64,000 nucleotides of DNA from an uncultured Flavobacteriaceae bacterium (GCA_943842625.1 CALTCK010000002.1:124001-188000), one strand, 5' to 3'; counted from the stretch's first letter, positions 10,966 to 24,735 are shown. Program-made: numbers and translations. Notes: generated by a model from the sequence alone, not told the origin.

Positions 10966-13656
10966 TTAAAAAAGAAGTGTTTGGCCCTCATCGTCTATTT
11001 CAGGATCCACAAAATTATCTTTCTTTAAATTATCAGAAGAATCTTCGGGGGAAGCAATAGTGTTTAAGTCGTTTTTGTCAGGTACAATCACATTAATTTC
11101 CTCGATCACCTCTAACTCTTCCAAAGGAGTTTCTTCAATTGGTTCATAACGCAAAGGTTCTTTTGGATTTATCTCAATTAATTTATCCTTAGTTAATTGA
11201 TTTCCTAAAGCTGATATTCCTTTAATAGCAATAAAATTTTCTAATTTTATTACTGTATTTTCTTGACGTTCTTTACCTCTTTTCTTGGCAAAAACCAATT
11301 CAACAACAGGCCTATAATCTGTAAATACTGTTTCTAAATAGGATTTTGAATGATCTGAAATTACTTTTTCTTCTTTATCAGGATTTTCTATTAAAAATCG
11401 TTTTACATAAAAAAGTTCCTTTTCACCTTCCCAATATATCACCGAAATAGGCTTTTTAGGATCCCACTTTTCCAAAACAATCATCGCATCATTGAAATGG
11501 AGTGTTATTTCTGGCACAACTGTTTTGACGATACCATTTTGATCTATAATTAACAATCTATCTTCACTTGTAAAGTCACCTAGAAGCTCTCCTCGTTGAT
11601 CTACATTTAATCGTTGTACGGTTTCATCAAACCAAATTTTTCTTGGTTTTAAGGTCGAGAGTCCTTTTTCTTTTAACTCAATTCTTTTCACAGAGTACTT
11701 AGTTACTATATTTCCACGAGACCCTCTACCTTTTACGATCATATCGGTAAAATCAAGATCAAATTTAAGCTTCTTTATACTTCCAGTTTGTCTTAGAAGT
11801 ACGGTTACTAATTCTGCCTCACCATTTGGATTGGCAGTAAAATAAATTACTTTAGTTGATTTAGTTCCTTTGGTTAAATCATAAGCTTTATCTCGGGTTA
11901 TCGAAGTAACTGAAAACCTTTTGACGTAGGACGCTCCTCGTGCCCCATCTCTATAAATCATGTTATAAATTGTACGAGTATCTTTTTTCTTAAAAACAGC
12001 AACGTGGATAATATCTTTCCCAATAAATGTTTTTGCACCTACTTTGGTTACCATCATTTTACCATCTTGAGTAAAAACAATAACATCATCAATATCACTA
12101 CAATCAGTAACATACTCATCTTTTCGGAGGCTGGTTCCAACAAAGCCTTCTTCTCTATTTACGTAAAGTTTAGTATTTCGAATTACTACTTTAGTTGCTT
12201 CAATATCGTCAAAAACTCGAATTTCAGTTTTTCGCTCCCTACCCTTTCCATAATCGGCCTTTAATCCTTTAAAATAATCTATTGCAAATTCGATTAGATG
12301 ATCTAAATGATGCTTAATTTGAGCTATTCGTTCTTCCAAAGCATCTATTTTCTGCTGCGCTTTGTCGATATCAAATTTTGAAATACGTTTAATTTTAATT
12401 TCTGTCAACCGAACGATATCCTCTTCTACTACAGGTCTTTTTAAATGGCTAATATGTGGCTTTAGACCCTTATCGATTGCGGATATAACTCCTTTCCACG
12501 TTTCTTCTTCTTCAATATCTCGATAAATACGATTTTCAATAAAAATTCTTTCAAGAGATGCAAAATGCCATTGTGCCTCTAATTCATTTAATTGAATTTC
12601 TAATTCGCTTTTTAACAAAGCAACTGTCCTGTCTGTTGAAGTTTTAAGCATTTCATTGACACCCACAAACAAAGGCTTATTATCTTCAATTACACAGCCA
12701 AGAGGAGATATAGGTGTTTCACATTTTGTAAAAGCATACAGTGCGTCTATGGTCTTATCTGGAGAAATTCCATTAGGTAAATGAATTAGTATCTCTACCT
12801 CTGCAGCGGTATTATCTTCAATCTTTTTAACTTTAATTTTCCCTTTTTCGTTTGCTTTTAAAATCGAATCAATTAGTGATGTGGTGGTGGTACTAAAAGG
12901 AATTTCAGTAATGGACAACATATTTTTACCATGATGATTAATTCTTGCCCTTGATCTTATTTTTCCACCCCTTAACCCATCATTATAATTTGTTACATCT
13001 GCAACGCCTCCAGTTGGAAAATCTGGAAATAATTGAAACCTCTTTCCTTGTAAGTGTTTGATGGATGCTTCTATTAATTCTATAAAATTGTGAGGTAAAA
13101 CCTTTGTTGATAAACCTACCGCAATCCCCTCAGCTCCCTGCGCCAATAACAATGGAAATTTAACGGGTAAGTTAATAGGCTCTTTTCTTCTTCCGTCATA
13201 AGAGGCCTGCCATTCGGTGTTTTTTGGATTATAAACTACCTCAAGCGCAAATTTTGAGAGTCTTGCTTCAATATAACGAGACGCAGCAGCTCTGTCACCC
13301 GTTAGTATATTTCCCCAGTTCCCTTGAGTGTCAATTAAAATATCTTTCTGCCCTATTTGAACCATTGCATCAGCAATACTCATGTCTCCATGAGGATGAT
13401 ACTGCATCGTATGCCCTACAATATTGGCAACCTTATTGTATCTTCCATCGTCCAGGTCTTTTAAAGACTGCATGATTCGCCTCTGAACTGGCTTAAAACC
13501 ATCTTCAATTGCTGGTACAGCTCGTTCTAAAATTACATAAGAGGCGTAGTCCAAAAACCAATCTTTGTACATACCAGTAACCTTAGTTATAGTATCTTCA
13601 CTTTGGTTTTCAGTAGAATTTAATTCATCTTCATTATAGTTTAATTCGTCACTCAT
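10966..13656 (-). CDS. parC: DNA topoisomerase IV subunit A (ParC/GyrA family)
   Basis: This 896-aa protein is the breakage-reunion subunit of the type IIA topoisomerase that decatenates daughter chromosomes. The N-terminal WHD contains VQRRIMQSL, the HPHGD loop and the catalytic Tyr in AAASRYIEARLS. A tower and coiled coil follow, then a C-terminal beta-pinwheel. The last roughly 90 residues are acidic and low complexity (EETPLEELEVIEE, DEGQTLLF). The residues aligned with E. coli ParC Ser80 and Glu84 in the quinolone-binding loop are Met and Asp (HPHGDMSIADAM). It lies 20 bases downstream of parE and is surely co-transcribed. Confidence 0.93.
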   Translation of the reverse strand: MSDELNYNEDELNSTENQSEDTITKVTGMYKDWFLDYASYVILERAVPAIEDGFKPVQRRIMQSLKDLDDGRYNKVANIVGHTMQYHPHGDMSIADAMVQIGQKDILIDTQGNWGNILTGDRAAASRYIEARLSKFALEVVYNPKNTEWQASYDGRRKEPINLPVKFPLLLAQGAEGIAVGLSTKVLPHNFIELIEASIKHLQGKRFQLFPDFPTGGVADVTNYNDGLRGGKIRSRARINHHGKNMLSITEIPFSTTTTSLIDSILKANEKGKIKVKKIEDNTAAEVEILIHLPNGISPDKTIDALYAFTKCETPISPLGCVIEDNKPLFVGVNEMLKTSTDRTVALLKSELEIQLNELEAQWHFASLERIFIENRIYRDIEEEETWKGVISAIDKGLKPHISHLKRPVVEEDIVRLTEIKIKRISKFDIDKAQQKIDALEERIAQIKHHLDHLIEFAIDYFKGLKADYGKGRERKTEIRVFDDIEATKVVIRNTKLYVNREEGFVGTSLRKDEYVTDCSDIDDVIVFTQDGKMMVTKVGAKTFIGKDIIHVAVFKKKDTRTIYNMIYRDGARGASYVKRFSVTSITRDKAYDLTKGTKSTKVIYFTANPNGEAELVTVLLRQTGSIKKLKFDLDFTDMIVKGRGSRGNIVTKYSVKRIELKEKGLSTLKPRKIWFDETVQRLNVDQRGELLGDFTSEDRLLIIDQNGIVKTVVPEITLHFNDAMIVLEKWDPKKPISVIYWEGEKELFYVKRFLIENPDKEEKVISDHSKSYLETVFTDYRPVVELVFAKKRGKERQENTVIKLENFIAIKGISALGNQLTKDKLIEINPKEPLRYEPIEETPLEELEVIEEINVIVPDKNDLNTIASPEDSSDNLKKDNFVDPEIDDEGQTLLF

Positions 13657-20491: not shown

Positions 20492-21031
20492 TTGAATTCA
20501 TTAAAAAATCATATTAGTAACCAATTATTTATTCTTAGAAATTTTAATAAACATTGGGAAATTACCTCGAATTGGCAATTACTATTTCCTCTTATAGGTT
20601 TGGTGGGACTCTTCTACTCTGCTAATAAATTTGTAATTTTATTAGGTATAAAATTATTATTTTTTAAAATCACTACCACTGTAGTAATAAGTTATATTTT
20701 ATTGAGAACCACTTTATTTCTTTTTAAAAAATTAGAAAAAAAATGGAAGTTAAGCTATCGATGGGAAATGATACGAGTTTTCATGGTTTTTGCACTTACA
20801 GGAAGTAGTAGTGCCTTGATAGGCAAACCTCTATTAAAAATAATTGGTATCACAAAAGATAATTTTCAACCGCTAGTTTATTGGATACTATACCTTCTGA
20901 TTGGATTTTTATTTTATCAAATACTTTTAGTTACCTTTGGCTGGCTTTTTGGTCAATTTAAATTCTTCTGGAATTTTGAAAAAAAAATGCTTAATAGAAT
21001 GAAATTAGGGTTTTTGTTAAATGAAAAATAG
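20492..21031 (+). CDS. DUF6787-type membrane protein
   Basis: This 179-aa membrane protein probably has four helices. The C-terminal half resembles DUF6787 (EKKWKLSYRWEMIRVFMVFA ... FGWLFGQFKFF). The N-terminal half follows a similar plan (FNKHWEITSNWQLLFPLIG), which suggests an internal duplication. The only possible start is TTG 20492 or ATT just upstream, since no ATG occurs until far into the protein. Its end overlaps the next gene by 11 bases. The function is unknown. Confidence 0.7.
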   Translation: MNSLKNHISNQLFILRNFNKHWEITSNWQLLFPLIGLVGLFYSANKFVILLGIKLLFFKITTTVVISYILLRTTLFLFKKLEKKWKLSYRWEMIRVFMVFALTGSSSALIGKPLLKIIGITKDNFQPLVYWILYLLIGFLFYQILLVTFGWLFGQFKFFWNFEKKMLNRMKLGFLLNEK

Positions 21032-21356
21032 AGAAAAAATAAAATCTTTACTTAATACCGCTGCACTATTGTTGATAACGATAGTGTTGTTCCCATCGGT
21101 TTTTCAATTGGTACACGTTTTTGAAAAACATGAACAAAATTATTGTTTTGAAAATTCCACACATATTCATGAACACGAAATTGAATGTTCGGTTTGTGAT
21201 TTCAAGTTAAATTCCACTGACGAACAATTACCAAAGTATGTTGAGTTTTTAACAATCAATTTTGACAAACAACTAATTTACGAGTATTATAACTTCAAAT
21301 ACAATCATCAGCATTTATCTTATTCTTTAAGAGGCCCACCAACCCTAGCTTCCTAA
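21021..21356 (+). CDS. His/Cys-rich small membrane-anchored protein
   Basis: This 111-aa protein has one N-terminal hydrophobic segment (about residues 12-32) and a periplasmic part rich in His, Glu and Cys: HVFEKHEQNYC, HIHEHEIECSVCDF and FKYNHQHLSYS. It ends in RGPPTLAS. The CxxC and clustered His suggest metal binding, but this is an inference. Similar small proteins ending in RGPP precede TonB receptors in other flavobacteria as far as I recall. It overlaps the DUF6787 gene and precedes the TonB receptor by 78 bases, so a role in sensing or presenting a metal to that receptor is plausible. Confidence 0.65.
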   Translation: MKNREKIKSLLNTAALLLITIVLFPSVFQLVHVFEKHEQNYCFENSTHIHEHEIECSVCDFKLNSTDEQLPKYVEFLTINFDKQLIYEYYNFKYNHQHLSYSLRGPPTLAS

Positions 21357-21434
21357 TTTTTATCTATTGGCTTGTGTTAGTTTTATTTAATCGCAAGCTT
21401 CCCTTTACTCAGAGTATCAAGTAATTCATAAAAT

Positions 21435-23832
21435 ATGAAGTATTGTATCATCATTACTTTATTGTTGAACTGTGTAATGTATAGCCAAAATTGCAATCAT
21501 TCCCTTGAAGGGTATGTTTTAGATTTTCATAATGGAGAACCTATTGCTGGCGCAACCTTACAAATTGAAAATTCACAGCTTCATACAATTTCAGATAGTA
21601 ATGGAAAATTTATTATTAATGACCTTTGCGAGAGTTCGCTAGAACTTATCGTTTCACATATTTCTTGTGATCAAAAAATAGTGGAAATTGATCTTAAAAA
21701 AACGATACAAACGACCATTTATTTAGAACATCATATTGAGGAACTTGAGATGGTAGCCATCAAAGGAAACAATTCAAACAATGGTGCTATTTCTGCGCAA
21801 AAGGAAAAAATAGATAAAAAAATAATCGACAATTTTAGTTCCGAAAGTTTAGGGACTATTTTAAAACAAGCTAAAGGGGTTTCTTCTATAAATACAGGGA
21901 ACAAAATTGTAAAGCCAGTGATTAACGGACTGCATAGTAGTAGAATTGCCATAATGAACAACAATGTTCGTATGGAAGATCAAGAGTGGGGTATTGAACA
22001 TGCTCCTAATATTGACGTCAATGCCATCGATCATATTACCGTCATTAAAGGCTCCAATGCGCTGGCTTATGCAGGAGATGCTATAGGTGGTATTGTGGTT
22101 TTAAAACCACTACGATACCTTAATAAAGACACTTTATACGGAAAGACCATTGCAGGTTTTCAAAGCAATGGTTTGGGTTACAACCTAAACAGTATGCTTT
22201 CTAAAAATTTTAAGAACGGATGGTTTGCAAATGGAAATGTTGGTTATAAACAAAACGGGGATTTAAAATCTCCAGATTATAATTTAACCAATACCGGAGC
22301 AAAAAGTTTTTCAGGGAGTGTAATCTATGGGCTATCAAAAATTTGAATATGGTTTTGAAGCCAATCTCAGTTATATAGACAATACCATGGGAATTTTAAG
22401 TGCCTCCCATATTGGAAATGTAGGAGATTTGGTCAATGCAATCGATAACGAAGAACCTCGCATTATTAATGATTTTTCATATACTATCAATTCACCAAAA
22501 CAAGAAGTTTCTCATTTACTTGGTAAAATAAACTTTTACAAACGTTTTAGTGCTTTAGGTAAGCTTTCTATACAGTATGATTATCAAAATAACCATCGGT
22601 TTGAATTTGATAAAAGAATTGGAGATGATAGAGATAAACCAGCGGTCGATCTTGAATTGATAACCCAAAATTTAAAATCAGATTTGATGATTGATAAGTT
22701 TGATAACTCAACAATTTATCTGGGAGTTACTGGTAAGTATCAAGAAAACATTGCCAATCCAGAAACTGGAGTTAGGAGACTCATCCCTGATTATGAGAAA
22801 ATGGATGTTAGTATTTATGGTATATGGAATACTACTTTTAATCATAAATTAAAAACTGATTTCGGTGTACGGTATGATTATAATTTTATTGATGCGCAAA
22901 AATATTACAAAACTAGTCGATGGGAAGAGCGTGGATATAGCGGGGATTTTAGTGATTTTATCGTGGACGACTTGGGAACTCAACTTTTAACAAACCCAAC
23001 ATTTACCTATCATAATATTTCCTTATCTGCAGGTCTTATTTATAGTGTCAATAAAAACAATGACCTTATTTTTAATTATGGCTTATCATCCAGACCACCC
23101 AATCCGTCAGAATTATTTAGTGATGGATTGCATCATTCTGCTGCGCGAATAGAGTTAGGAGACTTGAGGTTGACTAAAGAAATATCGAACAGAGTTGGAC
23201 TTAGTTATCAACTAGAGGCTAATAAAATAAATTTAAGTGTAGATACCTTTATCAACCAAATCAATGATTTTATCTATTTAAAACCCACCGGAACGCAAAC
23301 GACCATTCGTGGCGCCTTTCCAGTCTGGGAGTATTTTAAAACCAATGCATTGTTGGCAGGCATTGACACCAGCATTGATTATCAATTTACAGAGCTTTGG
23401 AGCTTAAACTCAAAATTTTCGTATGTGTACGGACAAAACACAGAGGAAGACATTCCATTAATCGATATTCCTGCATTAAAATTAAATAACGCACTTAATT
23501 ATAGATTAAAAAATTGGAATCATTTAAACGTACGTTTAGCTCATGAGTGGGTTGGCAGACAAAATAGATATCCTAACTATAATTTTGAAACCTATATTCC
23601 AACGACTGGAGAATATGTAGAAGTAGATATAAGTACACCTCCTAATGCATTTCAGTTAATTCATTTGTTTGGAGATGTGACTTTTTTGTTAAATCAAAAA
23701 TCAACCTTAAATTTAATGATTGGAATAACAAATTTATTTAACACAAACTACAGAGAATATTTAAACAGATTAAGGTATTATGCTGATGATACCGGAAGAA
23801 ATATTACTATTCAAATTAAATTTAACTATTAA
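21435..23832 (+). CDS. TonB-dependent receptor, one-base frameshift
   Basis: The two track ORFs (21435-22346 and 22327-23832) are halves of one outer-membrane receptor. The first has a signal peptide, a carboxypeptidase-like regulatory domain (VLDFHNGEPIAGATLQI) and the plug (GTILKQAKGV, VIKGSNALAYAGDAIGG). The second is the beta-barrel, ending ITIQIKFNY with a terminal aromatic residue. Reading GGG as GG at about 22328-22330 restores VIYGYQKFEYGFEANL, giving roughly 798 aa. The plug sequence with DQEWGIEHAP and the adjacent His-rich protein resemble metal-uptake receptors of the ZnuD type; the substrate is not proven. It is either a sequencing error or a recent inactivation. Confidence 0.82.
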
Positions 23833-23844
23833 AAACCAAAAAAA

Positions 23845-24414
23845 ATGAAAAATTATTTCAAATTAGTATCAATTACACTTTTTACACTTTTATTTGTTGC
23901 TTGTTCAAGCGATGACGATGCCGCACCAGAACCAGTAAATGAAGAAGAAGTAATAACAACAATGATTGTTACCCTAGATGGTCCAGATCAAGTTGTAACA
24001 TTAGAATATCAGAGATCCAGATGGACCTGACGGACCTGACTCTGCAGATACTTACTGTTTCAGGAGCGTTAACTGCTAATACTACTTATGCTGGATCTAT
24101 TAGGTTACTGAACGAAACAGAAGACCCGGCTGAAAATGTAACAGAAGAAATTGAAGAGGAAGATGATGAACATCAATTTTTCTATACACCTAGTTCAGAC
24201 TTAAACGTTGAAGTAGATTATGGAAATTTTGATGGTAACGGGAATCCTTTAGGAACAATGTTACATTCTTACTACAGGTGCAGCTAGTTCAGGGTCGTTA
24301 ACATTTACATTACAACATGAGCCAACTAAACCAAATACAGGTTTAGAAGATGCAGGAGGAGAAACTGATATAGAAGTTACTTTTGACGTAGACAATTCAA
24401 TAATTTGCTTCTGA
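23845..24414 (+). pseudogene. Surface-exposed acidic lipoprotein, three one-base insertions
   Basis: The product starts with a lipoprotein signal (LFTLLFVACSSDDD). SSDDD after the Cys fits the flavobacterial surface-export signal. The protein matches a small flavobacterial family that databases often name type 1 periplasmic binding fold: VTLDGPDQVVTLEY, LTANTTYAGSI, LNETEDPAENVTEEIEEEDDEHQFFY and the C-terminal TLQHEPTKPNT, AGGETDIEV. The frame changes at about 24008-24014, 24047-24053 and 24261-24266, each by one extra base, so the last part returns to the first frame and ends at TGA 24412. Corrected length is 188 aa. It follows the TonB receptor by 12 bases and is probably its surface partner. 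Confidence 0.75.
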
Positions 24415-24420
24415 GTTTTT

Positions 24421-24447
24421 AAAAAGCCCCTAATGGGGCTTTTTTTA
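24421..24447. terminator. Hairpin terminator
   Basis: AAAAAGCCCC, loop TAAT, GGGGCTTTTT and further T residues form a strong intrinsic terminator after the lipoprotein gene. The A-rich left arm lets it also serve the convergent minus-strand gene that ends at 24448. Confidence 0.85.
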
Positions 24448-24735
24448 TTAACTATCGTTTCTCGGATCATCGTGTGCGTTTTTTTTCCAAATAAAAGTAT
24501 ACAACCACATCAAGGTAAAAGTTGGAATGATATCTAAGCCTGGAAGTATTTCTTCTAGAAAAACAACAACAGCTGCAATTTTACCTTGAGTACCCCGGTA
24601 CATTTTATTTATTTGAAATGCAGCATAAGGTGCCCATATTAAATCTATAATGGTCCCCCAAAATGGAATAAACATGGTGGCTATTCCTATTAGATCTAAT
24701 AAAATTCCTTTTCTTAATAATTTATATTTGTCCAT
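24448..24735 (-). CDS. Small membrane protein
   Basis: This 95-aa protein has two or three hydrophobic segments (GILLDLIGIATMFIPFWGTIIDLIW and FTLMWLYTFIW) and a polar, charged C-terminus (KKNAHDDPRNDS). Pro and Gly around FIPFWG, and the central PYAAFQINKMYRG, are typical of a small conserved bacterial membrane family, but I cannot name it. The function is unknown. It lies 60 bases downstream of msrA on the same strand and could be co-transcribed with it. Confidence 0.65.
   Translation of the reverse strand: MDKYKLLRKGILLDLIGIATMFIPFWGTIIDLIWAPYAAFQINKMYRGTQGKIAAVVVFLEEILPGLDIIPTFTLMWLYTFIWKKNAHDDPRNDS

Follow-up and report, generated by a model that had tools for sequence, protein, structure and literature searches.

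The DNA considered here, referred to as the window, is a stretch of 64,000 nucleotides from an uncultured Flavobacteriaceae bacterium (GCA_943842625.1 CALTCK010000002.1:124001-188000), numbered from its first letter. Between positions 20,492 and 24,414 it carries, all on the plus strand, a DUF6787 gene recognized by Pfam (20492..21031), a small open reading frame (ORF) of 111 amino acids with an ATG start (21021..21356), a TonB-dependent receptor in two parts (21435..22346 and 22327..23832), and a broken gene for an acidic lipoprotein (23845..24414). The small ORF is the main subject of this analysis and is proposed to be an upstream ORF (uORF) that encodes an arrest peptide and serves as a metal-sensing leader. 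A first-pass annotation of the same DNA, made from the sequence, had instead joined the small protein, the receptor and the lipoprotein into a three-part unit for metal uptake. The three co-directional genes are indeed present where it placed them.

The small protein (MKNREKIKSLLNTAALLLITIVLFPSVFQLVHVFEKHEQNYCFENSTHIHEHEIECSVCDFKL...HQHLSYSLRGPPTLAS) begins with a hydrophobic targeting segment, seen in its sequence and hydropathy at about residues 12-30 (21054..21110, plus strand). A cluster of candidate metal ligands follows, made up of H32, C42, H48-x-H50, H52 and C56-x-x-C59 (21114..21197, plus strand). The run HIHEHEIECSVC, to which the first-pass annotation drew attention, is found at residues 48-59. 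The protein ends in LRGPP-TLAS-stop, so that the arrest-motif codons R104-G105-P106-P107 (21330..21341, plus strand) stand four residues before the stop. The earlier description of the protein as rich in His and Cys holds, but it overlooked the RGPP at the C-terminus, the most telling feature of all.

The small ORF is a real gene: its ratio of nonsynonymous to synonymous substitution rates (dN/dS) is ~0.2 against three relatives, and homologues can be found throughout the phylum Bacteroidota. They occur in 25 of 59 near relatives (not counting three weak matches, L026-L028, that have internal stops and were judged false), in 84 of 395 genomes of the class and in 120 of 396 genomes of the phylum. 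R[AG]PP stands close to the C-terminus in 185 of 191 distinct homologues, in nearly all cases 1-5 residues ahead of the stop. Of the others, four have RSPP, one has KGPP, and one runs off the end of the fetched stretch. As a control, 3,878 other ORFs of similar size from the same loci were inspected, and none has such an ending. Because the homologues use every one of the six Arg and four Pro codons at the motif, the constraint acts on the peptide and not on the DNA.

Across 87 divergent members, with a mean column identity of 19%, only R104, P106 and P107 never vary, and H32 and C56 are each kept in at least 90%. In 21 closer members the invariant residues are H32, C42, C56, R104, P106 and P107, with H48 and H50 at 90% or above; the second Cys of the CXXC is often lost in this group while the His ligands are kept. 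The CXXC itself is present in the window copy (CSVC) and in 133 of 188 homologues. Its distance from the motif is also well maintained. The first Cys of the cluster is 46-49 residues from the motif Arg in 170 of the 188, and the spacing from CSVC to RGPP in the window protein is 44 residues. A hydrophobic segment, assessed by hydropathy only, is seen in 169 of 188. The small protein has no match in Pfam, NCBIfam or PHROGs.

In the 191 loci, the gene that follows the leader is most often a TonB receptor, which is the first gene in 133 and the second in no fewer than 22 others, or at least 155 of 191 in all. In the window the receptor begins 78 nucleotides beyond the leader, on the same strand. 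Other uptake systems can also be found in this position. Seven loci have an outer-membrane-like protein and then ZnuA and/or an ABC-3 permease or AztA-like ATPase; the ZnuA and ABC-3 assignments rest on Pfam E-values of 5e-53 and 1.5e-38, while the matches to the NCBIfam models AztC, AztB and AztA are below cut-off. Five loci have a CobW-type GTPase next, and two of these reach 540-552 bits with the ZigA zinc-metallochaperone model, whose cut-off is 600. Genes for a copper ATPase, CusABC, PCuAC or a multicopper oxidase were not seen among the neighbours in the 191 loci. Where a metal can be assigned from sequence, the downstream genes point to zinc. The first-pass annotation held that small proteins standing far from any receptor would speak against a metal-uptake unit. 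By this criterion the outcome is mixed: some homologues precede ZnuA or ZigA genes and not a receptor, yet these genes also serve metal uptake.

The outer-membrane-like protein of these loci is about 380 amino acids long and lies under a RAPP leader, ahead of the ZnuA/ABC-3 genes (L082:765-1910, L179 and similar). One copy was tested and has no Pfam or NCBIfam match. It is a candidate for a zinc-specific outer-membrane channel.

A further arrangement involves ATPases of the ABC-2 kind, which occur downstream of the leader in about nine loci, several of them ahead of a receptor. In L105, L155, L159, L160, L167, L193 and L199, from several genomes of the same family, a RAPP or RSPP leader is followed by an ATPase of the ABC-2 type and, in the cases looked at, by a TonB receptor. 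A similar neighbourhood is known from Caulobacter, whose Zur regulon includes an ABC-2 system adjoining a TonB receptor, znuGHI-znuK (PMC4176598).

RGPP and RAPP have been shown by experiment to arrest translation, and they are enriched at the C-terminal ends of small exported proteins whose genes lie upstream of regulated ones, including those for TonB receptors (PMC12992588). The window protein has the features of this class: R-A/G-P-P near the stop, an N-terminal hydrophobic segment, and a position upstream of a receptor. In its C-terminal RGPP, its signal sequence and the receptor downstream it resembles the TonB-related members, which are spread across Gram-negative phyla, although these were surveyed as a class (PMC12992588).

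The closest individual example is CruR (BP2923, DUF2946), the first gene of the operon for the TonB transporter BfrG/CrtA in Bordetella pertussis (PMC9426467, PMC12914433). CruR needs its CXXC for copper control and its RAPP for expression of the receptor; the two are separated by 45 residues, and C90 lies 49 residues from R139 (PMC9426467). It has been shown to stall ribosomes on RAPP in vitro (PMC12992588). Like CruR, the window gene comes first ahead of a TonB receptor and encodes a small exported protein with a CXXC and a C-terminal R-x-P-P. The spacing from Cys to motif is 44 in the window protein and 45 in CruR, and an untranslated gap precedes the receptor in both (78 nucleotides against 162). 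The two differ in the motif, which is RGPP here and RAPP in CruR, and in the ligands, since the leader family has additional conserved ones (H32, C42, H48, H50) and can dispense with the second Cys of the CXXC. Furthermore, some relatives of the leader head zinc-uptake genes, and no PepSY_TM gene follows in the window. The window protein does not match Pfam DUF2946 (PF11162), and 8 of 87 relatives match it weakly, the best with an E-value of 0.0017. One distant relative, from genome G097, scores above the DUF2946 cut-off and is also picked up by the leader family profile, so a remote kinship between the two families is likely.

Two other systems are informative. CutF of Rhodobacter capsulatus raises a copper oxidase in copper excess by way of an RNA stem-loop, and is degraded after export (PMC9973294). 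It shares with the leader family export, a metal motif, a proline-rich C-terminus and a place directly upstream of metal genes. As CutF-like proteins have been reported from Bacteroidota (PMC9973294), the leader family probably overlaps that list. The other system is engineered: folding of the Cys2His2 zinc finger ADR1a releases SecM arrest in vitro, and does so in a strictly Zn-dependent manner (PMC4571824). Here too the folding of a Cys/His domain around zinc would free an arrest peptide, although the ADR1a domain is 24-26 residues away from the stall point, compared with about 47-75 for the cluster in the leader. In view of this literature, the first-pass statement that no function is described for such a protein is out of date; the principle can be found in CruR (PMC9426467), CutF (PMC9973294) and the RAPP/RGPP survey (PMC12992588).

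A regulatory leader that acts in cis, as do CruR and CutF, is indicated by the arrest motif, by the constant spacing of ligands and motif, and by the first-gene position before different uptake systems. Motif, spacing, conservation, selection at the peptide level and gene order are direct observations. On this basis the small ORF is probably a CruR-like arrest uORF and not a metal carrier. This high confidence belongs to the arrest mechanism only and does not extend to zinc; as the metal sensed, zinc is favoured in more measured terms. It is an even question whether zinc-sensing arrest leaders of this kind control TonB receptors, ZnuA-ABC systems and ZigA GTPases across the phylum, in cis, after transcription has started and without a DNA-binding regulator.

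For this gene we infer stalling, metal binding, the direction of the response and the coupling of the stall to the receptor, and they could fit together as follows. The hydrophobic N-terminal segment would target the nascent chain to the membrane, and the ribosome would stall with P106 and P107 of RGPP occupying its P and A sites, in the manner of CruR. The Cys/His cluster would then lie about 45-75 residues away from the peptidyl-transferase centre, close to the translocon and either at the exit of the tunnel or past it, where it could serve as a metal sensor. When metal is scarce the stall would persist, and a ribosome halted near the end of the uORF, on its 3' side, would allow expression of the receptor and of the lipoprotein where it is intact, probably because it prevents Rho or an attenuator from ending transcription in the 78-nucleotide gap. 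When the cluster binds metal, its folding would pull on the chain and release the stall, so that Rho or another terminator could act and downstream expression would fall.

The gap between uORF and receptor contains a hairpin (21369..21399, plus strand) that starts 12 nucleotides after the stop codon and may be a pause or attenuator element for RNA polymerase. It is common to three close relatives, and a fourth, L030, has a different hairpin at the same place. A ribosome stalled on the two prolines should cover the message only to ~21352, by the toeprint rule. The idea that the stalled ribosome opens the hairpin was therefore set aside, as this coverage falls short of 21369 and most relatives have no such hairpin. 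Since the ribosome would not reach it, the hairpin is better explained as an element that pauses or attenuates the polymerase than as a structure that blocks the start codon. No known RNA element was found with Rfam, and scans for intrinsic terminators and promoters gave no more than expected by chance. The first-pass annotation had called for a check on upstream Zur or Fur sites; a search for Zur-like palindromes gave 65 where 74 are expected, which does not exceed chance.

The start codon of the leader lies inside the end of the DUF6787 gene, its customary neighbour, and this order (20492-21356) is kept in many related genomes. Because of the overlap, the leader may be transcribed from an upstream housekeeping promoter.

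In this assembly the two genes downstream of the leader are interrupted. CarboxypepD_reg, Plug and TonB barrel domains, all found with Pfam, confirm that the receptor is of the TonB type. However, its reading frame is split in two. Compared with the closest genome, G001, whose receptor of 798 amino acids is intact, the window has one additional A at 22327; the resulting frameshift ends the 5' part (CarboxypepD_reg and Plug) and separates it from the beta-barrel of the 3' part. Selection is strongly purifying on both sides of the extra base (dN/dS 0.08 before it and 0.13 after it), so the break either arose very recently or is an error of assembly. The lipoprotein is acidic and carries SSDDD, as the first-pass annotation stated; the SSDDD comes after a lipobox at its start. 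Its first frame is open only for 61 amino acids (23845-24030), after which there are several single-base indels; the copy in the sister genome ends at 74 amino acids, and intact relatives in other loci have 182-200. Region 23845-24470 as a whole has many single-base indels and ~20% divergence from the sister genome, which may reflect decay or very fast change.

Across the family, the acidic lipoprotein is a frequent yet optional partner that can stand before or after the receptor and is present in only part of the loci, whereas the link between the small gene and the TonB receptor is very tight. Of the proposed three-part unit, then, the appearance of a metal-uptake locus remains, and the locus is probably one; with the receptor frameshifted and the lipoprotein broken and optional, the unit itself holds only in part.

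Several other explanations of the small ORF have to be considered. The first-pass annotation saw a protein that is exported, binds metal and acts in trans within the periplasm, together with the receptor and the lipoprotein. A hydrophobic export segment, a His/Cys cluster and tight linkage to the receptor would all be expected of such a protein. However, this does not account for an R-x-P-P that is invariant at the C-terminus and keeps a fixed distance from the ligands, for the first-gene position before unrelated uptake systems or for the lack of other conserved residues, and the similar protein CutF is degraded after export; a periplasmic binder is thus quite improbable. The anatomy of an export signal with a RAPP-type motif is also that of a Sec monitor, and the uORF might report on protein export, like SecM, VemP and MifM, or on outer-membrane assembly, instead of on metal. 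Since the conserved residues are Cys and His and no sec, yidC or bam genes were seen downstream in 191 loci, this is very improbable indeed. Alternately, receptor and lipoprotein could both be pseudogenes, leaving the leader with nothing to control in this organism. The frameshift at 22327 and the multiple lipoprotein indels are what a dead locus would show, but the receptor has a dN/dS of 0.08-0.13 around a single base that may be an assembly error, the sister genome has an intact receptor, and the uORF itself is conserved. A dead locus is unlikely, though it deserves some weight.

A closer relative of the arrest-uORF reading keeps the same mechanism but makes copper the metal that is sensed and imported, as for CruR in Bordetella. 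Copper comes second after zinc and is a minority possibility. CXXC in the window copy and in 133 of 188 homologues would suit it, CruR and most of the Cys-type CutF-like proteins are linked to copper, and OprC is, with ZnuD, among the nearest solved relatives of the receptor. Many homologues, however, have lost the second Cys of the CXXC while keeping the His ligands, the downstream genes are for zinc uptake rather than copper wherever a metal can be assigned, and copper-related RAPP/RGPP uORFs have been stated to be lacking in Bacteroidota (PMC12992588). The zinc-piracy receptor ZnuD and the copper receptor OprC belong to the same broad superfamily as the window receptor, although scores fall far below both cut-offs: the intact sister receptor reaches 88.8 bits with the ZnuD model (NF038289, cut-off 950) and 91.3 bits with that for TonB-dependent copper receptors (TIGR01778, OprC; cut-off 472). 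The copper site of OprC is of the Cys/Met type. As the plug and barrel of the window receptor contain no Cys, a site of this kind is excluded.

Certain observations weigh against a zinc-sensing arrest leader. The receptor fits copper models about as well as zinc models, and its intact sister copy matches heme models too, all far below cut-off; most members of the leader family precede TonB receptors with no assigned substrate. One receptor beside an ABC-2 ATPase in the leader loci scores as a siderophore type. In the reverse test, the leader was found in 3 of 30 ZigA loci and, convincingly, in none of the 30 best ZnuA loci, so zinc genes in the phylum are usually under other control. CutF responds to its metal in the opposite direction. 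Finally, the hairpin is confined to close relatives, and the more distant loci, with gaps of ~40 nucleotides, are without it.

The association of arrest uORFs with TonB receptors is already published, and the zinc link is plausibly the new element. Zinc, ZnuA and CobW are unmentioned in the main text of PMC9973294 and PMC12992588. A literature search on zinc in connection with arrest peptides, TonB or Zur found nothing, with preprints, supplements and most subscription papers outside its reach. To our knowledge, a zinc leader would, if real, be the first natural zinc-responsive arrest peptide. It would be a natural counterpart of the engineered SecM zinc-finger sensor, and would extend metal sensing by nascent chains beyond copper. 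Little has been described of how Bacteroidota control zinc import, and for many of their TonB receptors the substrate is not known. A leader that reveals its ligands and stall motif in its sequence would flag many of these receptors as metal-regulated and give a hint of the metal.

The leader family profile finds this one copy only in the genome to which the window belongs, G000. That genome, 84% complete, has a single Fur-family regulator and lacks a ZnuA homologue, for which reason the receptor may be its chief means of taking up the metal. A scan of genome contigs with a closer family alignment gave matches in four Flavobacteriaceae/Flavobacteriales metagenome-assembled genomes (MAGs) only; the nearest named genome is the Flavobacteriaceae MAG FRAM18_bin221. 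Relative to G001, the window has a second cluster of single-base indels at 12130-13522, unlike most of its remaining length. Some genomes have two leader peptides close together (L080/L081, L099/L106, L121, L123), either directly in tandem or with a separate receptor or lipoprotein behind each.

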